Shown: piece by piece, positions 1-11,937 of the stretch
How positions within the stretch are numbered: the stretch's first letter is position 1
Layout: every line of letters begins with the position of its first letter
Virus record (IMG/VR): IMGVR_UViG_3300032291_001756
Span: 1 to 20,934 of that record
Direction: 5' to 3' (one strand)
Origin: a virus
Length of the DNA: 20,934 nt
Notes under the pieces: model-generated
Told to the model about the DNA's origin: nothing
What the model saw: only the letters and a program-made list of their open reading frames with translations
Databases searched by the model: none
Program-made: the position numbers and the translations under genes

Positions 1-1371
1 CCTGCCCTGCAGGAGCTTGCCACCTTGGTAGATGTTGCGTCTAAGAACGGTCAGCTAAACCGCTCTATCTTTTATGATAGCATCGGTGCTGAGGATGTGG
101 GTCGTGCTCGTAACCTTTCGGATCGCTTCTCGGCTATCTCTGGAGCCATGTTCCACCAAGTGGAACGGGCCAACCGGCAGGTGGCGCTCGTGGCTGCCTA
201 TAACCTCGAACTCGCACGTCTTCGCAACAAGCCAAGAGATTCAGAGCGCGGACTGAGCGAGGCTGAGCAACGCACCCGTGCCGCGGAGCGTGCTGTATAC
301 CAAGCGACGGAAACCGGTGGTGGCGCTACTCTTGCCGCTGCGCCGCGCTTTGCGCAGAAGGGCATTGGGCGTGTAGCCCTCATGTACAAAAACTTCGGTC
401 TGTCTCTGTTCTACATGCAGATGAAGTTGCTAAAGCAGTTGACCGTAGGCAGTAATGATCCTGACTTTACGCCAGAAGATCGTCGGGTAGCTTTTAGGCA
501 GCTTGTCGGTCTGCAGCTGTCGTCCTTTGCCTTTGCAGGGGTATCGGGTGTTCCGCTCTATGGGCTTGTGTCCACTATAGCAGATGCGTTCCTCGGTGAG
601 GACGAAGAAGACGCGGACTCGCTGACTCGCAAGTATCTCGGTGAGGGGCTCTACAAAGGCTTCCTAACAGAGATATCAGGGCTCGACATCTCGTCTCGTA
701 TCGGCCTGACTGGACTTTTGATCCGCGAGAACCGCTATAACACCGACCCCTCTGCGGAAGAGACCCTTGTAGCTAACCTTGGTGGCCCCGCATGGTCTAC
801 CGTAACGCAGGCTGGTCGTGGCGTATCTGAGTTCTATTCGGCCATGACTGGTGGTGAAGGTGATATGGTACGAGGCATTGAGAACATGGTGCCTGCCGCA
901 TTCCGTAACTTCATTAAGGCCGGTCGTTATGTCTATGACGGCGGCGATATTGAGACACGTCGTAAGGACATCATTACTGGTGATCTGGGTTCTAGCGACC
1001 TGCTCGGGCAGGCTCTTGGTTTCGCACCAACCAAAGCCACGTTGGCGCAAGACCTGAACCAGCTAACGGTGAGGATCAGCAACGCTGTCGTTGAGAAGCG
1101 CTCACGGCTGTCAAAGCTATACTACATCGCTATGCGTGTTGGGGATATGGAAGGCGCCAAAGAGGCGCTGGAAGACATACGCGCCTTTAACAAAGATGTT
1201 GCGCAGCGTTTTCCAGAGGCCGTCATCGACAACGAGTTCATTAAAGACTCGCTTAAGAGCCACGAGCGTACGTCGAAGGAGATGTCTAGCGGCGTAACGC
1301 TTAACCCTGTTGTGCGTGAGGAGCTCGAAGTCCTGAAGTCGATGTACAATAAGGGCCTGCAGCTGTTCTAA
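1..1371 (+). CDS. C-terminal part of a large phage virion-associated protein (5' end outside window)
   Basis: The frame is open from the first base, so the start lies outside the window; the TTG at 25 is only the first possible start inside it and is not supported. The 456 visible residues contain no enzyme motif I recognise. There is a long charged helical stretch, then an Arg/Phe-rich segment around a Y-K-N-F-G motif, a hydrophobic stretch (about residues 165-200) with Gly and Ala that could insert in a membrane, and a polar helical tail ending in LQLF. This style matches the C-termini of the very large polyvalent or PLxRFG-type internal virion proteins of tailed phages, which often carry lytic or DNA-ejection functions upstream. 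That assignment is inference from composition and context. It is the only plus-strand gene and converges on the replication array, as expected for the end of a structural module. Confidence 0.7.
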   Translation, partial: PALQELATLVDVASKNGQLNRSIFYDSIGAEDVGRARNLSDRFSAISGAMFHQVERANRQVALVAAYNLELARLRNKPRDSERGLSEAEQRTRAAERAVYQATETGGGATLAAAPRFAQKGIGRVALMYKNFGLSLFYMQMKLLKQLTVGSNDPDFTPEDRRVAFRQLVGLQLSSFAFAGVSGVPLYGLVSTIADAFLGEDEEDADSLTRKYLGEGLYKGFLTEISGLDISSRIGLTGLLIRENRYNTDPSAEETLVANLGGPAWSTVTQAGRGVSEFYSAMTGGEGDMVRGIENMVPAAFRNFIKAGRYVYDGGDIETRRKDIITGDLGSSDLLGQALGFAPTKATLAQDLNQLTVRISNAVVEKRSRLSKLYYIAMRVGDMEGAKEALEDIRAFNKDVAQRFPEAVIDNEFIKDSLKSHERTSKEMSSGVTLNPVVREELEVLKSMYNKGLQLF

Positions 1372-1372
1372 G

Positions 1373-1399
1373 AAAAAAGCCCCGGCGCGAAGCCGGGGC
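1373..1399 (-). terminator. Intrinsic terminator closing the minus-strand array
   Basis: A perfect 8-bp GC-rich stem (GCCCCGGC at 1379-1386, GCCGGGGC at 1392-1399) has a 5-nt GCGAA loop. Read on the minus strand it is followed directly by six T residues (1378-1373), the classic rho-independent layout. Read on the plus strand the stem comes just after the stop of the virion gene but has no T-tract. It therefore fits best as the end of leftward transcription, with possible weak action on the convergent plus-strand transcript. Confidence 0.85.
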
Positions 1400-1457
1400 A
1401 AGTCAGAGAACAACAGAAGACTAGCTGGCGGCAAGCCTGCGCGTCGCGCGCACAATA

Positions 1458-1676
1458 TCATGCGGTTCTCCATACACGCAACCCTAAATACGGGGTCTCG
1501 ATTCTCTGCCTGCATGTTAGGGAGATTCCTAACCTTTTTCCCACGCCCTGAACCTGCCTAACGCAGAGATCGGTGTTGACGCAGGGGACAAAGAACGAGC
1601 CACCAACGTGCAGTTCATCCCACGGCACGATGATGCGAACCCCGTCTGGGTCTAAATCATTTATTCTCTTCGCCAT
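1458..1676 (-). CDS. Small conserved phage protein, unknown function (72 aa)
   Basis: This is the last gene of the leftward array. The ATG at 1676 lies inside the end of the primase-helicase gene, 20 bases overlapping it, with a weak GGACGAG upstream; a TTG at 1694 would add 6 residues but is less likely. The protein starts MAKRINDLDPDG and continues with I-I-V-P-W-D-E-L-H-V-G-G-S-F-F-V-P-C, then a basic segment, and ends G-L-R-V-W-R-T. The mix of a short strand, a V-P-W motif and a basic C-terminus looks like a compact folded nucleic-acid-associated protein, and I recall similar short proteins in replication modules of marine phages, without a known function. An 18-bp dyad (1516-1533) lies within the coding region. 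Confidence 0.75.
   Translation of the reverse strand: MAKRINDLDPDGVRIIVPWDELHVGGSFFVPCVNTDLCVRQVQGVGKRLGISLTCRQRIETPYLGLRVWRTA
1516..1533. repeat. Dispersed 18-bp dyad, copy A (GTTAGG-N6-CCTAAC)
   Basis: Exact match to GTTAGG, spacer GAGATT, CCTAAC, located inside the 72-aa gene. On the plus strand it is followed by CTTTTT, so it could also serve as a weak terminator for transcription coming from the virion gene. It is one of five sites in the window with identical spacing. Confidence 0.75.
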
Positions 1677-4515
1677 CTGGCTCGTCCAGAACAATCGGTA
1701 TCTCGATGGTGTCCACGACGTTCATACGCATCTTGGTGCCCTTGGTCAGTCTGATCTTAGACTTCTTGACGCTGTACTTGGCCTTGAGCTCTGCAAGAAC
1801 CGAGTTGTAGTTGACCTGCTGATCGGCCAGCCAAGCCTTGAACGGGGTCGGTAATAGGAACAGCACGTTTAGGTCGGTCTCGTATCGGCCGATGATGTCG
1901 GCGGTCTTTGGCTGCTGGTCTGGCACTACAAGGTCATCAATCCCATTCCCGTTCTTCTTGCTGCGTCCGTCTATGGTGGACTTAATCTGTAGGATGCGGC
2001 CCAAATTCTCGTAGGTGTAGGCAGTCACCAAGTCCATCGGGTCGAGCGACATGTCGGAGCTGGTTGTCTTGTTGGCTTTGAGGATGTTCTTGATGATGTA
2101 GTCCCGCAGCACAGGGATGTCGTAGTCCAGCAGCCCTAGGTGCTTACAAATCACGGCAGCCGCTAACGAGGTGGCCACGGCGGCTGACCAGAAGCGGTTC
2201 TCTGGGCCGAGGTCTGCGGCCACGTCGATCTTGCGCTGTAGCGTCTCCAGAAGCAGTTTTGTCTCGGTTAGGTTGGCCATGACGTACTGGACAAATAGGG
2301 TGCCTGCATGGCCGTAGTTGGTCTGGATGTTGGTGCTAAACGCGTCGGTCTGCTTCTTGTCGGCCTTCTCGTTAAACAGCTTGCTTGTCTCAATCTCCAA
2401 CACCCTCTGGGCCTCTGCCTTTGGCATCGCCTTTGCCATAGCCACCTTGTCGATCAGGCTGCAGTTCGCTGATGAGATGAACAGCAGGTTCCAAGGGTCG
2501 CCACGATAGCGCTCGGTGTTGCCTGTGGAAGCAAGCCGGTTGCGCTGCTGACCCCCCGTAATCTGGTAGATCATGTCCGAAGCATCTTGCGGTTTGATGT
2601 TGGTAATCTCGTCCATACACACAGGCAGGCTGTGCATGACATCGGCTCTGTTCATACGGGAGTTATGGGTGTCGCGCTCTTGGAGCAGCAGCTTACGCGG
2701 GTCGCCCCATACCGAGAGCGCTGCGTATTGGGCATGCGTCTTACCAAATCCGGAGTCCTTAGACCAGATATGCAGTAGGGCCGCATTGATCGGCAGAAAC
2801 TTCATCAGCACCGAGCCGAAACCGACGCAGGTGATGAACTGGTGGAGCTCAAAGCCGGGACGGTTGTAGAAGTTCACGGCATCGCGCCACCCGTCGAGCG
2901 TGCCTGCGGGCTCAAAGAACTCCAGCATGCCCCGCGTTGCGGCCGAGGGTGCGTTAAACTCTACGCGGTCTTCATAGATGACCTTGTCCCCTAGGACGAA
3001 GCCCTTGAAGTCTGGGAGCCAGCCGAACTGGCGGTGTGCATCATCTGCCTGCGTTGTAATCTGCAGGTTTTTAACCATAGATTGTGTAAAGCTCATGATC
3101 GCATCCACTTCCTTGTTGATAGCTATGACGCCGTTTGTGGCGAGGACTTTGCGAAATTCTTCCTTGGACGTAACGACGTAGAGAGGCACCACAAAAGACC
3201 TTACCCCGTCCCTAGGCAGATGGTGCCGCATCTCGACAATTTCACCCTGCTCTGGATCGTTTAGGCGGCGCACTACATACAGGTCGTGATGCCATATAAT
3301 CCGCTCGCTCACTTCACCATCATCGTCAATCACACGGATGAACACGCCGCCGTTCTTACCGCGGAAATATGGGTTCGGGTATTCTGGGATTTCGTAGACC
3401 CTAGGCGGCTCGTTGGGTTTCTCTGGGTTGTCGACAACGATGGTGTTGTCCTCTGGTGATGCTTCCGTGAACTGCTGACCAAGAACGATTGGTGACTTGA
3501 TCTTGTTCCAGTGTGGGCACCCTTGGCAGCCGCCCGGATTGTACTCCTCGAAGCGCGCGCAGAGATACGGCCCCTTGATGAGGTCGGCCTTTTGCATAGC
3601 GGTATCTTCGTCGTAGTCGGGATGCCCCATAGAAACAGCGCGCACAGCCTTTGGCATATCGGTGCAGTGCTTTGCGATAGATAGGGCTGCGCGCCACATA
3701 GGCTCTGGTAGTTCCGCCCTGTTCTCGATGCAGTGAGCCAGCTGGGCACATCCCTTGCCGGCTACAGTCTTCTGCATGATGCTCTTGAACGATGCTTCTC
3801 GCTTACCGATCAGGGCGTCCATCATGGCACTGTTTGTAACAGCTGGAGAATATCGCCTAGCGGGCATGCTAGTCGGCAGACTACCGGCCACGGACTCGAG
3901 CAGCGCTGCGAAGGCAAAGAACTCCACTGGGGCCGGCTCGGTCATGCCGAAGAAGGTAACGGGCTTACGATCACCGCCCTTATGGTTATGCGTACCCGGC
4001 ACCCGTAGAACGCGGGCAGCGTCGGCGGTCACTGTCTCGTCGGCCTTGAACCCTTGGGCCTTGGCGAGCGCCTTGAGCTTTTCAGCCACAGGGAGCCACG
4101 CCATGAAGTCCACAGGCGCAGTAAGCGGCCAGTAGACGTGCACACCATAGCCGGAGCTGACTAGGAATGGGCGAGGCAGCCCGTTGGCTTTGACGAAGGT
4201 CTTTAGCGCCACTATGGCAGCGTATTGGTCGGGAAACTCTTTTGGCTTTCCGGTCTTGAGGTTAACTCCGCAGTCCAAGTCCATGAAGAACGCCCGCATC
4301 TGCTTGACGTTATCGGCCTCGCGGGAGCCAGCTTCTTCAAATGTACCGAGGGCGAAGTAAGCATCCAAGCCGTTTTCGTCAAAGTTCATAGCAGCGTGCT
4401 CTAGCTGCTCTATAGTGTCGTAGAACTTTTGGATGCGTCTGTTCTCGTTAATAGCGAGAACGCAGTAGGAGCCTGCAGTCCCAAGAACGGACTGCAAAAA
4501 TGTCATTGTATCCAT
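1657..4515 (-). CDS. Phage primase-helicase (PrimPol-like N-terminus, P-loop helicase C-terminus)
   Basis: A two-part replication protein of 952 residues from the ATG at 4515; the longer frame from a TTG at 4581 only translates a stem-loop and is rejected. The N-terminus resembles archaeo-eukaryotic primases: FFMDLD (acidic pair at 79 and 81), SSGYGVHVYW (about 121-130, with the His expected in the active site) and RVLRVPGTHN (about 168-177). A probable zinc site follows, with Cys319, Cys330 and Cys333. The C-terminal half has a Walker A motif, SKDSGFGKTH (585-594), and a Walker B-like CMDEI (Asp635, Glu636), as in DUF927/VirE-type phage helicases. Such fusions prime and unwind at phage forks. 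It lies directly downstream of the ssDNA-binding protein gene, with a strong stem-loop in its leader, and overlaps the next small gene. Confidence 0.88.
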   Translation of the reverse strand: MDTMTFLQSVLGTAGSYCVLAINENRRIQKFYDTIEQLEHAAMNFDENGLDAYFALGTFEEAGSREADNVKQMRAFFMDLDCGVNLKTGKPKEFPDQYAAIVALKTFVKANGLPRPFLVSSGYGVHVYWPLTAPVDFMAWLPVAEKLKALAKAQGFKADETVTADAARVLRVPGTHNHKGGDRKPVTFFGMTEPAPVEFFAFAALLESVAGSLPTSMPARRYSPAVTNSAMMDALIGKREASFKSIMQKTVAGKGCAQLAHCIENRAELPEPMWRAALSIAKHCTDMPKAVRAVSMGHPDYDEDTAMQKADLIKGPYLCARFEEYNPGGCQGCPHWNKIKSPIVLGQQFTEASPEDNTIVVDNPEKPNEPPRVYEIPEYPNPYFRGKNGGVFIRVIDDDGEVSERIIWHHDLYVVRRLNDPEQGEIVEMRHHLPRDGVRSFVVPLYVVTSKEEFRKVLATNGVIAINKEVDAIMSFTQSMVKNLQITTQADDAHRQFGWLPDFKGFVLGDKVIYEDRVEFNAPSAATRGMLEFFEPAGTLDGWRDAVNFYNRPGFELHQFITCVGFGSVLMKFLPINAALLHIWSKDSGFGKTHAQYAALSVWGDPRKLLLQERDTHNSRMNRADVMHSLPVCMDEITNIKPQDASDMIYQITGGQQRNRLASTGNTERYRGDPWNLLFISSANCSLIDKVAMAKAMPKAEAQRVLEIETSKLFNEKADKKQTDAFSTNIQTNYGHAGTLFVQYVMANLTETKLLLETLQRKIDVAADLGPENRFWSAAVATSLAAAVICKHLGLLDYDIPVLRDYIIKNILKANKTTSSDMSLDPMDLVTAYTYENLGRILQIKSTIDGRSKKNGNGIDDLVVPDQQPKTADIIGRYETDLNVLFLLPTPFKAWLADQQVNYNSVLAELKAKYSVKKSKIRLTKGTKMRMNVVDTIEIPIVLDEPDGEENK

Positions 4516-4538
4516 TGCCGCCACTCTATCTGTTGAAA

Positions 4539-4580
4539 TGCCGCGACGAGGTGAGGTTATTTTTATCCCTCGTCGCGGCA
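4539..4580. other. 13-bp perfect stem-loop in the leader of the primase-helicase gene
   Basis: TGCCGCGACGAGG (4539-4551) pairs fully with CCTCGTCGCGGCA (4568-4580), leaving a 16-nt A/T-rich loop. It fills the 78-base gap between the ssDNA-binding protein stop (4594) and the primase-helicase ATG (4515). On the minus strand only TTTC follows, so it is a poor intrinsic terminator. It may be an RNA processing site, a binding site for translational control, or a DNA cruciform near the origin; none of these is shown. Confidence 0.8.
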
Positions 4581-4593
4581 AGCCCGTTAAGGA

Positions 4594-6181: not shown

Positions 6182-6208
6182 TATATTACTATCTAATGCA
6201 CTAGTCAA
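6180..6208 (-). promoter_or_regulatory. Candidate sigma70 promoter for the ssDNA-binding/primase operon
   Basis: On the minus strand TTGACT (6208-6203) is followed by a 17-bp spacer and TATATA (6185-6180). The match is 5 of 6 at -35 and 4 of 6 at -10 with ideal spacing, in the most A/T-rich stretch of the array and in one of its few real gaps. The -35 box overlaps the stop codon of the SNF2 helicase gene. The predicted start is near 6173, about 23 bases before the ATG at 6150. Confidence 0.6.
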
Positions 6209-7736
6209 GTAATTCTTTGTAAAGATCGACGACCTTGGTATGCACGTCTATCTTCTCGTCGAGCATCTTGTAGACCCGACGCTCTACACCCGATCCCTGT
6301 AACTGGACAACTGTACATTTGTTTACTTGCCCCTTGCGGTGCACCCGCGCGTTAGCCTGCGCATAGGTTTCGAGTGATGATGTTGGCGCCCACCAGACGA
6401 CTGTATCAGCCGCAGTGAGTGTGACGCCGTGTGCAGCGGCCTGTGGTTGGATAACCAATACCCGTGGGTTGGGCTGCTGCTGAAACTGTTTGAATATCTC
6501 GGTTCTAGTGCCAGCGTTCACGTCGCCATTGATGACGGCGTTTGTGATGCCATCCTTGGTCAGCTGCGCGGTCAGCATGTTGATGACGTGCTTGAAAGGC
6601 ACGAAGACTAGCACCTTGTGCGAGGTTTCGGCGATGACTTCCTTGAGGACATTGTAGCGGTTGTTGATGTCGAACTGGACTGTATCACCTGACTCGGTGT
6701 AACTTGCGCCGGCCGATATTTGCAGGAGTTTGCCCATCATCACAGCGGCGTTTACTGCCGTGATCTGCTCGCCAGCGACTTCCATAACCATCTGTTTCTT
6801 TAGACGGTTGTAGTAGAGCTCCTGCTGCTTGGTCAGTTCCACATCCCGCTTAACGTAGGTCATGTCGGGCAGGTCTAGGCATTCTTCCTTGGTGAACCGT
6901 ATCGCCGGCTGCAGTGCGCGGTGCACAGTGTATTCGGAGTTTTCTTTGGGCTTCCACCGATACTGCGATAGCTTAATCATAACCATGTCTTTCCAAGCGG
7001 CGGCGACCTTGGGCACACCCATTGGGTTGACGAGTTTGGCCAAACCGTAGGCGTCCTCGGGCCCCTGCGCCGCAGGCGTACCCGTCATCATCCACAGCCA
7101 AGTATCTGGCCCTACCAGAGAGTTCAGCACCTTCCAGCGCTTGGTCTGGGCAGACTTATAATGACTAGCCTCATCAACGATAATGAGGTCGTATCCTGCC
7201 GCAGCGATGTCGTCTTTTACGATCTCCACGCCGTCGTAGTTGATGATCAGGAAGTCAGCCTTACCGGCGATGATTTTCTTGCGCTTGGCCGCTGTGCCGT
7301 AGGCGATGTCGACTGTCCGGTGCATGGCAAATGAGAACAAGTCCGCGCGCCATGCGCTGTCCATAATCGAGAGCGGACAGATAACGAGAACGCGTTTGAT
7401 GATACCCTGCTTCATCAGAAAGTCCGCGGCCCATATCGCGCTGGCTGTCTTACCCGTCCCCGCTTCGTTGAAGCAGAACGCCTTGCGGTTCATAGTCAGA
7501 AAGGCTGCCGTAGTGCGCTGGTGCGACATCGGGGTAAACTTACCCGTCCAGCTGTATCGGTTCTCGATGGGCGACGGCACGTTTATATTGAGCCCGCGAA
7601 GCGTGTGTGCCTCGTTCACACCCCAGTGTACAACAACCTCGTGCTCGTTAACTGCTTTGCTTTTTGGGATGATCGTAGTGACTTGTTTTGGATTGCGTAG
7701 CCGTAACAGCAACGCCTTATTGTCGATGATCTGCAT
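6201..7736 (-). CDS. SNF2-family DEAD/DEAH-type helicase
   Basis: 511 residues with a full superfamily 2 motif set: N-E-A-G-T-G-K-T (Walker A, about 90-97), V-I-C-P motif Ia near 108-111, V-D-E-A (motif II, 187-190), T-G-T-P (motif III, 218-221) and Q-A-N-A-R-V-H-R-K-G-Q (motif VI, 460-470). The D-E-A-S variant and the R-x-H-R-x-G-Q ending are typical of SNF2-like helicases and annealing or remodelling ATPases found in many phages near DNA polymerase. It is expected to move on duplex or branched DNA during replication and recombination rather than to be the fork helicase. The ATG at 7736 follows GGAGAACAAC. A candidate promoter for the downstream genes overlaps its stop codon. Confidence 0.93.
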   Translation of the reverse strand: MQIIDNKALLLRLRNPKQVTTIIPKSKAVNEHEVVVHWGVNEAHTLRGLNINVPSPIENRYSWTGKFTPMSHQRTTAAFLTMNRKAFCFNEAGTGKTASAIWAADFLMKQGIIKRVLVICPLSIMDSAWRADLFSFAMHRTVDIAYGTAAKRKKIIAGKADFLIINYDGVEIVKDDIAAAGYDLIIVDEASHYKSAQTKRWKVLNSLVGPDTWLWMMTGTPAAQGPEDAYGLAKLVNPMGVPKVAAAWKDMVMIKLSQYRWKPKENSEYTVHRALQPAIRFTKEECLDLPDMTYVKRDVELTKQQELYYNRLKKQMVMEVAGEQITAVNAAVMMGKLLQISAGASYTESGDTVQFDINNRYNVLKEVIAETSHKVLVFVPFKHVINMLTAQLTKDGITNAVINGDVNAGTRTEIFKQFQQQPNPRVLVIQPQAAAHGVTLTAADTVVWWAPTSSLETYAQANARVHRKGQVNKCTVVQLQGSGVERRVYKMLDEKIDVHTKVVDLYKELLD

Positions 7737-8027: not shown

Positions 8028-8693
8028 TTAACCCCCGTTATGGGCACACTCTACCACAGGGCAGTACTTTCGGCATAGTCCCGATGGTCTTGGGTTCCAC
8101 ACATTTGTCTCATGCGCCTTTTCCAAGGCGGCGTACTTCATAACCCACGGCTTCCATAGCACGCCCTCGTCAGTGACGGAATAGTCCTGCTTCACGATCT
8201 CGTTGGCGATGGTAAACAGCAGCGCGCCCTTAGCCTTCTTCACCTGCGGGAAGTGCTTAAATACCGACAGGGCCATAAGCTGAAGCTGCCCAACGTCGGC
8301 ATACTTCGAACTCTTACCAGTCTTGTAGTCGATGATGCGAGCCGTATCCCCGTTGATAACCAACAAGTCCACGATACCGCGGAACCACACGTTCTTGGCG
8401 AAGAAGTCGCACGGCTCAAGGTCAGCGGTTAGGCCCATCTTGAGTTCGCAGTGCTTCTCCCCCGGCATGGCAGCGAGCTTCTCCATAGCGGCCTGCATGA
8501 ACGAGAACTGCGGCGGCAGTGGCTTGCCGTCACGAATATATTCTTCGCATGCCTTGTGAAACTCGGTGCCATATCTGGTTGCATCGGTCTCTTGGAATGG
8601 GAACTCTTTGAGCACGTTCACGTGGTAATACTGCTTCGGACACGTCTCAAAAGCCTTCATCCTACTAAAAGACCATGCACCTGCACTGCTCAT
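8028..8693 (-). CDS. PD-(D/E)XK nuclease, RecB/Cas4-like with Fe-S cysteines
   Basis: 221 residues. It begins with the S-x-S-x-x-x-x-F-x-x-C-P motif of the PDDEXK_1 family (Cys18). The nuclease core is visible: His46 in Y-G-T-E-F-H, Asp109 in G-I-V-D-L-L, Asp122 and Lys124 in I-I-D-Y-K-T-G, and Gln136 in G-Q-L-Q-L. Cys207, Cys211 and Cys216 at the C-terminus together with Cys18 match the one-plus-three cysteine pattern that holds a 4Fe-4S cluster in Cas4, AddB and related exonucleases. It probably resects DNA ends during phage recombination or degrades host DNA. No CRISPR genes are nearby, so a Cas4 role in adaptation is not supported. The ATG overlaps the DNA polymerase stop as ATGA, so translation is likely coupled. 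Confidence 0.9.
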   Translation of the reverse strand: MSSAGAWSFSRMKAFETCPKQYYHVNVLKEFPFQETDATRYGTEFHKACEEYIRDGKPLPPQFSFMQAAMEKLAAMPGEKHCELKMGLTADLEPCDFFAKNVWFRGIVDLLVINGDTARIIDYKTGKSSKYADVGQLQLMALSVFKHFPQVKKAKGALLFTIANEIVKQDYSVTDEGVLWKPWVMKYAALEKAHETNVWNPRPSGLCRKYCPVVECAHNGG

Positions 8694-11407
8694 TCCGTCT
8701 CTCCATAATTTTTTCCAATACCTGCTTCACAGTCGACGGGTAGGCCATCGGCCCATGTTGGAACCCAACGCATACACTCTTCGACATAGGCTTTGCAGGT
8801 TTCAGCCTCATCGTCAGGCACACAGCATACAATGCTGTCATGGACTGTCAATACTACGCGGTACTTCTTACTAATTCGCAGCATTTGTTCGCCGATGATA
8901 AGTCTGGCCAGTGCCTGCGTTACGTTCTCGACCACCTTCCCGCCGTAGATACGGGTGCGGCCGATGCGGGTTTTGTAGGAATATTCCATCCCGCCTTTCT
9001 CGTTCTCGGCCTCTTCCAGCTCGTCGTAGCGGATCAGCAGACCATTGGGCAGTATGATGCCGGGGGCGTGTGGGTCTACGCCTAGCACCCCGTCTTTACC
9101 GAACGGCATGGCGTCTCCGCGCACCATGTATCGCAGCATGATACCCGCCTGCTTCCACATGTTAGAGATCATGTCGTTTGTTTCGCGGTAGATACTGATG
9201 ATCTTGGCGGCTTCGTTTTTGGTGATCTCCACCCCAGAGTTCTTGAGGGCCAGCTGAAACTTATCGCCACCCATGCCGTAACCGCAGTTATGCACGATGA
9301 TTGGCCCGGCAGTAGTCGCAACTGTGTATCTGTTCTTCGGCCCGGCGAAGGCGATGTCGTAGGTCATCAAGTTCTGCTTGCAGTGCGGCGACAGTTCGAC
9401 GGTTGGCGTGGTTTTGCAGTTTGGTAGCAAACCGCAGATTGCCCGGCTCATACCCCTTATTATTGTCGATACGGTCGATATCGCGCGTCGGGTCATCCCA
9501 TCCATCCAGTGTGAGCAGATACCGTAGGAACTCTGCGCGATCTGCGCGCCATGAGGCGTGTACAACAATACCTCGCCCCCCATAGTGGTGGTAAGCGGCG
9601 TTAGTTTTGGTGTGGCAGCGCGACAAACACGAAGAAATCCGGTTAAGGAGCCGCTCGCGGTGGGCGTCATCAGGAAGTACGCTGCGGTACTTAAGCCAGC
9701 GTTTTCGATTAGCCGCACGTTTTGCGCACGTGTTGCAACGCGTTGTACGGCCCGCTTTGAGGTTTGCGCGGTCCACCATGCCTTCCCAGCCGCAAGTACA
9801 GCGGACAATGGGATGCCATCCTGATTTAGGTTTTGGCTCCCAACGTAGGATTTCAAGGTCGCCAAACGTAGCGCCGATTGGAAAAGGGAAGGGTTCGTAG
9901 TTACCTCGGACCACTCCCGCCACCCATGTTCCGTTAGTATTTCGTGGTCCGCTGTGGCGGCTACCGCTGCCATACGTATTGTCGGTTTTACCCCCTGCGC
10001 GACCACACCCTGATGTGTTACCCATGCGTCCCCATCCCATACTTTATCCGTAATCGTAACCTGTATAATAGGGATATACCCACGGTCCGTCAAGACTAGG
10101 GTATCCCCAGCGAAACAGCCGAGCACTGTCGTCTTACCGACAAAGCGCTCGCCAGCGGTTATGTCCATCACCCCTTTATTATAGATACGCGACGCCATTA
10201 TCTTATACGGGTCGTACTCCATATCCTCCTTTTTTACCCCTGCGGCTACCTCTGCATTATTTTTTGCAAATATGTCTACAACGTCGTCCTGACCAGCCAG
10301 CCACGCCAGCATACGCGCTTCAATCTGTGCAGAGTCTGCCTCGACGATGCTGTAGCCATCTGGTGCTACGATACACTTCTTGAGTGCCTTGGCGTTAGGG
10401 CCCCGACTAGGGAGGTTCTGCAGATTGATCTTATCATCCCCGCCCCAGCGGCCCGTGTGGGCCGCGTAGTAGCGCACGGGTACAGGCAGTATGCCCCGCC
10501 CCGATATGTCGATGAAGCGCTGTGTGCGGGTCTCCTCTAGCGTGGACTTCACTCCTAGCCGTGCGGCAGCCAGCGTCTGCACCTGTGGGTCATAGTGATC
10601 CAGCAGGTCTTTCATACCCTGATCGGTCTTAGCCAGCGCGTAGGTCATTTTCCCCGTGGTAGGGCTGATCTTCATGGGGCACGGGACGCCCAGATTACCT
10701 AGCAGCGTAGCAAACTTGGGGTTCGACATGAGGTCGGACTTGTCCTCTAGGCCAGCGGACTTGAGCAGGTCTCCCTTCATAAGCTGCGTCTTCGCTAGGT
10801 GCGCTTCTAGACGCTCTCGGTCGAGCCCAAGCGTGGGCTCCGTAAACATACGCAGGGTCAGGTCGATCAGCTTGAGTTCGGACTTAGGGAAGCCCCGTGA
10901 CAGCATGATGTTGAAGATTTCGTAGGTCAGGTCTACGTCATTTATGCAGTACTGGCCGTAGGCCGACAGCTCCTCAAACGAGAAGTCGCTACGCCTCTTG
11001 CCCTTGGCATCAAGCACCTCGTTGCCCTTCTCCCCCACCCCGTAGTTTTGGGCGAGGGTTTTCAGGCTAGCGCTCTTCTCAACCCCGTGGATGGCACGGG
11101 CCATGCAGAGGGTATCAAACAGAACCTTGGGACGGATACCGAACCGCCACGATAGAATTGCACCGTCAAACATCATGTTGTGTGCCAGTACCGCGGAGTT
11201 GGCCCAGTTATACTGGGCCAAGAACTCCTTAGTGCGGCCGTGAGTGCCGCTGAACCATTCGGTGGTGCCCGCGTTGACCTTCACCCCCACCCCAATGACT
11301 TGGAAGCGGGGGTCACGAACATACTCTTCCGTGGTTATCTTGGACAGCGAGTAGTCCTTGTCGTAGTAGGTCTCAAAGTCGACGGTTAGAATATCCATGC
11401 CACTCAC
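8690..11407 (-). CDS. Family A DNA polymerase with 3'-5' exonuclease domain, interrupted by an intein
   Basis: 905 residues as read; 628 after intein removal. The N-terminus is a DnaQ-fold exonuclease: T-V-D-F-E-T (Asp10, Glu12), H-N-x-x-F-D (Asp81) and Y-C-I-N-D-V-D (Tyr153, Asp157). The polymerase part has motif A E-A-D-S-A-Q-I-E (Asp358, Glu363), motif B starting at Arg421/Lys425 and continuing after the intein as G-Y-G (709-711), and motif C V-H-D-S (His856, Asp857). The intein (431-707) cuts motif B, so the enzyme cannot be active before splicing. Coordinates use a GTG that overlaps the upstream stop as GTGA; the ATG three codons later (11398) is equally plausible. The stop overlaps the nuclease gene. 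This is the replicative polymerase of the phage. Confidence 0.95.
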   Translation of the reverse strand: MSGMDILTVDFETYYDKDYSLSKITTEEYVRDPRFQVIGVGVKVNAGTTEWFSGTHGRTKEFLAQYNWANSAVLAHNMMFDGAILSWRFGIRPKVLFDTLCMARAIHGVEKSASLKTLAQNYGVGEKGNEVLDAKGKRRSDFSFEELSAYGQYCINDVDLTYEIFNIMLSRGFPKSELKLIDLTLRMFTEPTLGLDRERLEAHLAKTQLMKGDLLKSAGLEDKSDLMSNPKFATLLGNLGVPCPMKISPTTGKMTYALAKTDQGMKDLLDHYDPQVQTLAAARLGVKSTLEETRTQRFIDISGRGILPVPVRYYAAHTGRWGGDDKINLQNLPSRGPNAKALKKCIVAPDGYSIVEADSAQIEARMLAWLAGQDDVVDIFAKNNAEVAAGVKKEDMEYDPYKIMASRIYNKGVMDITAGERFVGKTTVLGCFAGDTLVLTDRGYIPIIQVTITDKVWDGDAWVTHQGVVAQGVKPTIRMAAVAATADHEILTEHGWREWSEVTTNPSLFQSALRLATLKSYVGSQNLNQDGIPLSAVLAAGKAWWTAQTSKRAVQRVATRAQNVRLIENAGLSTAAYFLMTPTASGSLTGFLRVCRAATPKLTPLTTTMGGEVLLYTPHGAQIAQSSYGICSHWMDGMTRRAISTVSTIIRGMSRAICGLLPNCKTTPTVELSPHCKQNLMTYDIAFAGPKNRYTVATTAGPIIVHNCGYGMGGDKFQLALKNSGVEITKNEAAKIISIYRETNDMISNMWKQAGIMLRYMVRGDAMPFGKDGVLGVDPHAPGIILPNGLLIRYDELEEAENEKGGMEYSYKTRIGRTRIYGGKVVENVTQALARLIIGEQMLRISKKYRVVLTVHDSIVCCVPDDEAETCKAYVEECMRWVPTWADGLPVDCEAGIGKNYGETE
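9288..10040 (-). CDS. HNH homing endonuclease encoded out of frame inside the polymerase intein
   Basis: 250 residues on the same strand as the polymerase but in a different frame (offset 2). A Cys4 zinc ribbon (Cys81, Cys83, Cys102, Cys105) follows a G-A-T-F-G-D-L-E-I-L start that is usual for phage HNH proteins. The endonuclease core is unmistakable: Y-H-H-Y-G-G-R-G-I (150-158), a following Trp, then D-I-D-R-I-D-N-N-K-G-Y-E-P-G-N-L-R-F-A-T (187-206) and Q-N-H-A-N-R-R. A Lys/Arg/Glu-rich helix ends the protein. The core (about 9396-9800) lies between the two Hint halves; the ends overlap Hint coding sequence. A TAA two codons before the ATG blocks read-in, and the TAA stop is made from the last bases of the intein His and Asn codons. 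A strong promoter candidate lies just upstream; the ribosome binding site is weak. Confidence 0.85.
   Translation of the reverse strand: MGWGRMGNTSGCGRAGGKTDNTYGSGSRHSGPRNTNGTWVAGVVRGNYEPFPFPIGATFGDLEILRWEPKPKSGWHPIVRCTCGWEGMVDRANLKAGRTTRCNTCAKRAANRKRWLKYRSVLPDDAHRERLLNRISSCLSRCHTKTNAAYHHYGGRGIVVHASWRADRAEFLRYLLTLDGWDDPTRDIDRIDNNKGYEPGNLRFATKLQNHANRRTVAALQAELDDLRHRLRRAEEQIHSCDYCRANHRA
10065..10093 (-). promoter_or_regulatory. Near-consensus sigma70 promoter inside the intein, upstream of the HNH gene
   Basis: On the minus strand TTGACG (10093-10088), a spacer of exactly 17 bases, and TATTAT (10070-10065) match the bacterial consensus at 10 of 12 positions. The predicted start near 10058 leaves an 18-base leader before the HNH ATG at 10040. 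The same bases encode intein block A residues (L-T at the -35 box, P-I-I at the -10 box), so protein and promoter share sequence. Confidence 0.65.
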
Positions 11408-11937
11408 AAGAACACGCCGCCCGCTGCACGGTTAATTTCGATCAGGTGCAATGCTTGCGACTTTGCGTCGTCCAAAGCATTATGGTGCGTGCCTACGCGC
11501 TCCATCTTTACGGATTGATATGCTTGCTTGACTGTTCGGTAGCATCTGTCTAGCCAAAATGGCCAAGAGGCCAAACTAAGTCGTTTGCAGGATCGGTGGA
11601 TAATTACATTGTCGAATGTAGCCCCGTTACCCCACACGCCTTGCAGTGGCGCACCCTCTGTGATGAGGAAGCCGGTAAAGTTACGCAGTGCTAGTTCTAG
11701 TCCAACACCAGCATCCTCGCCATCTTCTAAAGCGGCGCGTGCTGCTGCATCCTGCCGCAGCCACCACATAACAGTGCTAGCATCCATAACCGCACCACTA
11801 TCCACTGCGCTTTCAAGTGTGCAGGGCGTGTAAAACTCCTTGTGGATACCCATAGCGTCAAAGGCTACAGCGCCGATGGAAAGGATCGGTGCTTCTGGCC
11901 CGTTACCCATAGTCTCAATATCAACCATAATGTGCAT
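11404..11937 (-). CDS. DnaQ-like 3'-5' exonuclease (DEDDh type)
   Basis: 177 residues. Exo I is M-V-D-I-E-T-M-G (Asp6, Glu8); Exo II is G-N-G-A-T-F-D-N (Asp109); Exo III is T-H-H-N-A-L-D-D-A (His141/142, Asp146), the DEDDh order. The I-E-T-M-G and V-W-G-N-G segments are close to the phage 3'-5' exoribonuclease/Rv2179c-like group, so it may act on RNA or on DNA ends. It precedes the polymerase and its stop overlaps the GTG of that gene. Because the polymerase keeps its own exonuclease motifs, this enzyme is an extra activity and not the missing proofreader. The ATG at 11937 has GGGAGAACGAAA upstream. Confidence 0.9.
   Translation of the reverse strand: MHIMVDIETMGNGPEAPILSIGAVAFDAMGIHKEFYTPCTLESAVDSGAVMDASTVMWWLRQDAAARAALEDGEDAGVGLELALRNFTGFLITEGAPLQGVWGNGATFDNVIIHRSCKRLSLASWPFWLDRCYRTVKQAYQSVKMERVGTHHNALDDAKSQALHLIEINRAAGGVFL

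Follow-up and report, generated by a model that had tools for sequence, protein, structure and literature searches.

Organization of the polymerase locus

The window analyzed here is the whole of a 20,934-base stretch of viral DNA (IMG/VR virus record IMGVR_UViG_3300032291_001756), and its minus strand encodes a PolA-family DNA polymerase whose gene contains an intein; a second open reading frame (ORF), related to phage HNH endonucleases, lies within the DNA of that intein on the same strand and in a different reading frame (Table 1). Such a nesting was proposed in an initial annotation of this DNA, and all of the elements which that annotation described are present in the sequence. The polymerase ORF is identified by a Pfam search (DNA_pol_A, E 4.8e-22, together with a 3′-5′ exonuclease domain) and by a PHROG search, which places it in the DNA polymerase family phrog_17.

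Table 1. Features of the polymerase gene, its intein and the nested endonuclease ORF (window coordinates).
Feature	Coordinates	Strand	Remarks
PolA-family DNA polymerase ORF (precursor of 905 amino acids)	8690..11407	-	Uninterrupted ORF across the insertion
Intein, 277 amino acids (CFAGDT...TADHEIL...VHN)	9287..10117	-	In-frame insertion at PolA motif B, TTVLG^CGYGMGG
Hint N-terminal half, intein residues 1-91	9845..10117	-	AlphaFold; polymerase-frame omega 0.31-0.33
Hint C-terminal half, intein residues 245-277, His-Asn end then Cys+1	9287..9385	-	AlphaFold; polymerase-frame omega 0.27
Maximal endonuclease ORF, 250 codons plus TAA	9288..10040	-	-1 frame relative to the polymerase; same register in 88/88 homologues
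Shine-Dalgarno-like sequence, GGGATGGGG	10030..10038	-	5′ of the start codon, within the coding sequence of the Hint Trp-Asp-Gly motif
Best candidate start ATG, endonuclease residue 6	10023..10025	-	Spans an Ala codon (its third base) and the conserved Hint Trp codon, GC[A TG]G
Endonuclease core, residues 56-215	9396..9875	-	Selected in the endonuclease frame; polymerase frame merely open
Zinc ribbon, CxC...CxxC	9726..9800	-	Four Cys invariant in the endonuclease alignments
Catalytic-region motifs YGGRGI ... DRIDNN of the phage HNH family	9459..9584	-	Alignments and phrog_374
Stop TAA	9288..9290	-	Built from the terminal His-Asn codons of the intein, CA[T AA]C

The intein has the complete set of splicing residues first claimed for it, those of a class 1 (Hint) intein, namely Cys1, a TxDH block B, a terminal His-Asn and Cys+1 as the residue that follows the insertion. 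When the window is aligned with 30 homologues, Cys1, T55 and H58 (block B), H276 and N277 are invariant in all 31 sequences. AlphaFold models most of Hint residues 1-91 and 245-277 with a predicted local distance difference test score (pLDDT) of ∼96, and the best solved matches to the intein in Foldseek are mini-inteins (probability 1.00, best E 2.8e-4). The middle of the intein (residues 92-243) is modeled at a pLDDT of ∼30 and has no domain in the polymerase frame, in agreement with the earlier statement that the intein has no endonuclease domain in its own frame.

The 250-codon ORF in the -1 frame is the HNH endonuclease with zinc ribbon, YGGRGI and DRIDNN that had been recognized by eye, and it matches the PHROG HNH families phrog_374 (E 5.5e-31) and phrog_3377 (E 5.2e-20). 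YGGRGI reads at 9584-9567 and DRIDNN at 9476-9459 (minus strand), and Y148, G149, R151, G152, I153, D184 and R185 are invariant in the endonuclease alignments, the ends of which were trimmed; the rows used as input for structure prediction contained no phage records. The HNH label is based on family profiles, without a matching solved structure: Pfam and NCBIfam searches assign the nuclease to no recognized family, a PDB search with the endonuclease profile returned nothing significant, and the Hint part of the intein has no recognized match in Pfam.

Conservation of the nested register

Homologues were collected from IMG/VR, one genome scan and phage records; they are related to one another, so that the counts given here overstate the number of independent events, and a sister-pair test was used to limit this effect. 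Among them are 88 distinct nuclease sequences with recognizable Hint halves on both sides, drawn from metagenomic, phage and genome sequences and including the isolates Salmonella phage Ent1, Pseudomonas MR14 and Vibrio 97.13. The register of the nuclease relative to the polymerase is identical in all 88, and the nested register is also present in Sodalis phage SO-1. Across the 88 homologues the polymerase frame contains no stop codon in 63,636 bases, compared with 1,566 in the third frame. Nuclease homologues for which no Hint flanks were detected (44 sequences) behave differently, with 221 stops in 16,260 bases of the same relative frame, and nearly all of them carry stops there.

The initial annotation had remarked that the polymerase frame is free of stops across the HNH core, where several would be expected by chance, and synonymous recoding bears this out. 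Recoding residues 45-215 of the window's endonuclease introduces a mean of 5.0 polymerase-frame stops, with none in only 0.12% of trials, and the unconstrained third frame over the recoded core has 13. A chance ORF is ruled out by this test (P 0.0012, from the window alone) together with the stops in the homologues without Hint flanks.

The central proposal, an endonuclease nested out of frame within an intein that retains every splicing residue, is supported by the evidence. The nuclease frame is not routinely broken in relatives, with stops in the core in two of the 88 (L012 and L014) and in the N-terminal tail in seven, and the one register common to 88 distinct sequences excludes sequencing error as its source. 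We note that the two core interruptions are single nonsense codons (TAG at residue 85 in L012 and TGA at residue 165 in L014) in inteins whose own frame is intact, as is expected in a homing cycle.

Selection acting on the two frames

Selection was measured in 21 independent sister pairs, with omega conditioned on the lack of polymerase-frame stops. In the core (residues 56-215 of the nuclease) omega is 0.19 in the nuclease frame, where it is below 1 in all 21 pairs, versus 1.7 in the polymerase frame. The situation is reversed at both ends: residues 6-32, in the zone of the Hint N-terminal half, have omega values of 2.7 in the nuclease frame and 0.31 in the polymerase frame, and residues 224-249, in the Hint C-terminal zone, have values of 1.4 and 0.27 respectively. 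Only one stretch of about 23 codons (residues 33-55) has a pooled omega below 1 in both frames (0.46 nuclease, 0.81 polymerase). In the same 21 pairs the fastest-evolving sites are third codon positions, those of the nuclease frame in the core (0.28-0.30, versus 0.05-0.10) and those of the polymerase frame in both Hint zones.

The element is thus read as a relay, from polymerase frame to nuclease frame and back to polymerase frame. Comparison of codon-level selection in relatives shows that each frame is selected in its own stretch, and the earlier suggestion that both frames are kept needs to be qualified accordingly. It holds for the lack of polymerase-frame stops and for the doubly constrained residues 33-55, but not for the amino acid sequences encoded by the polymerase frame in the core or by the endonuclease frame in the Hint zones. 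Across the core, stops are excluded from the polymerase frame, but the amino acids that it encodes are unconstrained.

Start and stop of the endonuclease gene

The span of 9288-10040 given in the initial annotation is correct as an ORF, but not as a gene with its start at 10040. A nuclease-frame stop occurs at residues -25 to 5 in 50 of the 88 homologues, several of them immediately before residue 6, and because of these stops upstream of 10025 the nuclease is probably translated from the ATG at that position (residue 6) or from a codon further downstream. The residue-6 codon is NTG in 74 homologues (49 ATG, 20 GTG, 5 TTG); CTG is found in none of the 74 as compared with 8.7 expected from codon usage, for which the naive P is 3e-6, although the sequences are not independent. 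The Shine-Dalgarno-like sequence upstream has a duplex energy of -6.9 kcal/mol, versus -7.2 for the window's real gene starts and -2.6 for random sequence. Synonymous recoding of the Hint Trp-Asp-Gly motif yields equal strength, so the motif supplies this sequence as a by-product, and its strength was dropped as a sign of selection, the synonymous controls being just as strong. At the other end, a stop at residue 251 is formed from the His-Asn codons in 59 of the 88 homologues including the window, and it is the first stop in 23.

Empty sites and mobility of the element

Intein-free relatives with an intact motif B target were found. Three intein-free alleles (L166-L168) have nucleotide flanks at the motif B site that are 94-97% identical to those of the window, and for the L166 polymerase the flanks are 96-97% identical in DNA. 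The +1 position is Ala (GCN) in 77 of 79 intein-free relatives, versus Cys (TGC) in the window. L187 and one other intein-free polymerase have Cys rather than Ala at the insertion site, a possible footprint of intein loss.

Mismatches between the window and L166 are concentrated close to the site, with 8 in 80 positions within 40 nucleotides versus 8 in 690 elsewhere (Fisher 6e-5), and the clustering persists when the +1 codon is left out (5/77, p 0.006). This pattern fits co-conversion of the flanks. In 74 sequences nuclease and Hint distances remain correlated after partialling out the polymerase (partial r 0.67), whereas nuclease and polymerase distances are uncorrelated after partialling out Hint (0.04), showing that the endonuclease and splicing halves share an ancestry independent of that of the polymerase. 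The pair L009 and L013 offers an example: their inteins are ∼98% identical from the boundary on, and the exteins are only ∼60% identical (59% at the protein level upstream). Together, the shared ancestry of nuclease and Hint and the L009/L013 pair indicate that the nested element is transferred as a whole and that such transfer has been recent. The homing signature thus includes empty alleles, a flank co-conversion pattern and transfer as a unit.

A model for expression and homing, and its alternatives

We consider it highly likely that the element, inserted in a phage PolA gene, is an active mobile intein and that its nuclease is the product of a separate, overlapping gene in the -1 frame, made most probably by internal initiation. 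A single mRNA would give two products. Ribosomes in the polymerase frame would make the precursor, from which the Hint halves, joined by a disordered linker of ∼150 residues, would splice themselves out and restore the polymerase; the linker would be the polymerase-frame reading of the nuclease DNA. Ribosomes starting internally, most likely at the NTG of the Hint W-D-G-x-x-W motif, would make a free zinc-ribbon HNH endonuclease, which would cut, at motif B, polymerase alleles that lack the intein. With the invaded copy as repair template, the whole element would then be transferred, and the Ala codon at +1 would be replaced by the Cys codon that splicing requires.

Several considerations count against this account or parts of it. 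We infer splicing, translation by internal initiation, cleavage and the cleavage site from sequence. Pfam matches neither the Hint nor the HNH part, and Foldseek with the endonuclease model (pLDDT 78) retrieves no solved relative, none having E below 0.001. As for the start, the Shine-Dalgarno-like sequence is no stronger than recoding predicts and so lends initiation no independent support; no constraint is seen on endonuclease residues 6-32, and the N-terminal tail stops of the seven homologues noted above fall between residues 8 and 42. In some or all homologues the start may therefore lie further downstream, at residue 40 or 43.

The nuclease could be expressed by programmed -1 ribosomal frameshifting in place of internal initiation, yielding a fusion of N-extein, Hint N-terminal half and nuclease. 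The register of the main family is exactly -1, as this requires, and 18 sequences have AAACCCT near residue 49; however, just 31 of 86 sequences have a -1 slippery heptamer, which shows no conservation, the smaller nested set in the +1 register is beyond the reach of a -1 slip, and CTG does not occur at the candidate start. On this evidence we regard frameshifting as unlikely. It is a little less likely still that the nuclease ORF is a decaying relic and that the intein persists as a splicing element alone. The single core nonsense codons in L012 and L014 could be taken in that sense, and a homing cycle predicts them for some lineages, but the low core omega in every one of the sister pairs, the recent transfer between divergent polymerases and the intact catalytic-region motifs of the window all speak against decay.

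A group I intron with an HNH ORF deserves mention, since phage DNA polymerase genes are known to contain group I introns with HNH genes (PMC3428280) and GenBank annotates gp39 of Sodalis phage SO-1 as a 'type I self-splicing intron'. We think this very improbable: the host frame is open throughout in 88/88 homologues, no Rfam match was found in the region at the gathering score or up to E 1, and the flanks are a Hint domain under protein selection in the host frame (omega 0.27-0.33) with Cys1, TxDH, HN and Cys+1. The Rfam null and the selection on the Hint flanks were taken to rule the intron out. That an in-frame endonuclease domain was displaced by recent indels or sequencing errors, as a frame break in Salmonella phage SS3e that puts its Hint halves in different frames might suggest, is scarcely credible given one register in 88 distinct sequences, purifying selection in the endonuclease frame and the lack of any continuous in-frame version among 99 scored Hint/endonuclease pairs; error or pseudo-frameshift as the origin of the nesting was rejected.

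Range of layouts among relatives

The range of ARRANGEMENTS is given by these 99 Hint/nuclease pairs, which come from scanning every fetched locus with profiles for Hint and nuclease. The great majority (89) are nested in the -1 register and four in the +1 register (L162, L165 from Allobaculum, and second copies in L123 and L148); five are split or interrupted (L082, L132, L135, L035, L032), one is a broken isolate (SS3e), and a continuous in-frame fusion of Hint and nuclease is found in none. In SS3e (L247, 1347-4447) the polymerase is annotated as several ORFs around the intein, and the separation of its Hint halves into different frames is probably an indel or a sequencing error.

Nested HNH inteins in the opposite (+1) register were observed at 1982-3328 in L162, at ∼3750-4660 in L164 and L165, at 4588-5511 in L123 and at 2134-3045 in L148; those of L162, L164 and L165 are at motif B, and those of L123 and L148 are at other polymerase sites. 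Split-intein-like insertions, with a free-standing HNH gene between the Hint halves, are present in L082, L132, L135 and L014 (first copies, ∼2000-3450), L032 and L035. Their Hint halves are in different or interrupted frames, resembling 'fractured genes', and L014, L082, L132 and L135 additionally hold a nested intein at motif B.

The occurrence of two registers and of several PolA sites suggests that the nesting may have had more than one origin. On balance we lean towards a broader interpretation, that out-of-frame nesting is a standing, clade-wide architecture of mobile phage inteins that has arisen more than once (-1 at PolA motif B, +1 at motif B and other PolA sites). The Hint W-D-G-x-x-W motif would supply the ribosome-binding site and start, and His-Asn the stop, so that the splicing domain would be pre-adapted to an overlapping nuclease gene.

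Genomic surroundings and annotation

Phage replication functions make up most of what remains of the window, as a module. The ORFs at 1657-4581, 6201-7736, 8028-8693, 11404-11937 and 15570-16421 encode a DUF927 primase/helicase, a SNF2-type helicase, a PD-(D/E)XK nuclease, a Rv2179c-like exonuclease and a member of the phrog_200 'lipoprotein' family.

Close relatives of the nuclease are present in more than 150 sequenced phage records, mostly annotated as polymerase alone, and the existing annotation of the polymerase intein of Salmonella phage Ent1 gives splicing domains only. Two Jerseyvirus polymerases (L073 and L076) are annotated merely as 'endonuclease', though their polymerase frame encodes none. 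Annotation that disallows overlapping genes can miss a homing nuclease of this type.

Comparison with known systems

The usual description of a mobile intein is of a bifunctional protein that includes the nuclease as an in-frame fusion. The present element resembles the canonical large inteins (PI-SceI type, or the Ent1 gp34 helicase intein) in combining Hint with a homing endonuclease, in its conserved extein site and in its homing signature. It departs from them, with their in-frame LAGLIDADG or HNH domains, in that the endonuclease would be made apart from the intein protein, from an overlapping frame; the nuclease is in the -1 frame in 88/88 sequences and the in-frame middle of the intein is disordered. 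Fractured genes, reportedly described by Dassa et al. in 2009, are split inteins whose two halves flank a free-standing endonuclease gene. There too the nuclease is its own protein between intein halves, and the layouts at L132, L035 and L032 are comparable. In the window, however, both Hint halves are on one continuous ORF (11407-8690), so that this is not a split intein: the intein would act in cis and shares its DNA with the overlapping nuclease gene.

As in group I introns with HNH ORFs, one insertion combines a splicing function with an endonuclease ORF; here, however, splicing would be by protein (Hint) and not by RNA, and the window has no Rfam ribozyme match. Sodalis phage SO-1 (L246, NC_013600), in which the polymerase at 1358-4546 contains a nested HNH ORF at 2842-3600, carries the intron annotation cited above; by present evidence its element is an intein with a nested endonuclease.

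We found no report of an out-of-frame endonuclease within an intein in the literature searched, which covered neither 10.1101/2025.01.02.630785, on actinobacteriophage intein architectures, nor the 2009 work on fractured genes. Splicing and homing would here be coded by two frames of one DNA segment, and the nuclease could accordingly be expressed, be lost and evolve with little effect on splicing. The arrangement also points to a path that links fused, nested and split inteins. Because it occurs in cultured phages (Jerseyvirus, Dhillonvirus, Pseudomonas MR14), the translation of hidden nucleases is directly testable.

The closest report is that of the ShiLan domain, a hidden, out-of-frame HNH in the DNA methylases of Mycobacterium phages (Arsenault, Gosselin and Gogarten 2025, PMC11855218); a comparable methylase case has also been described (PMC12613952). 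In both ShiLan and the present element the HNH is out of frame, the insertion that holds it keeps the host frame open and ends in TAAC, the distribution is disjunct, and the residue after the site differs between invaded and empty alleles (Thr/Ser versus Pro in ShiLan, Cys versus Ala here). Internal initiation was likewise proposed for ShiLan, where it would be leaderless and without a ribosome-binding site (PMC11855218). The differences are equally clear: the authors of that study found no Hint or splicing domain and the host gene is a dispensable methylase, whereas here a Hint intein sits in a polymerase, the start and stop of the nuclease are built from Hint codons, and more than 80 homologues could be compared, with selection measured in both frames.

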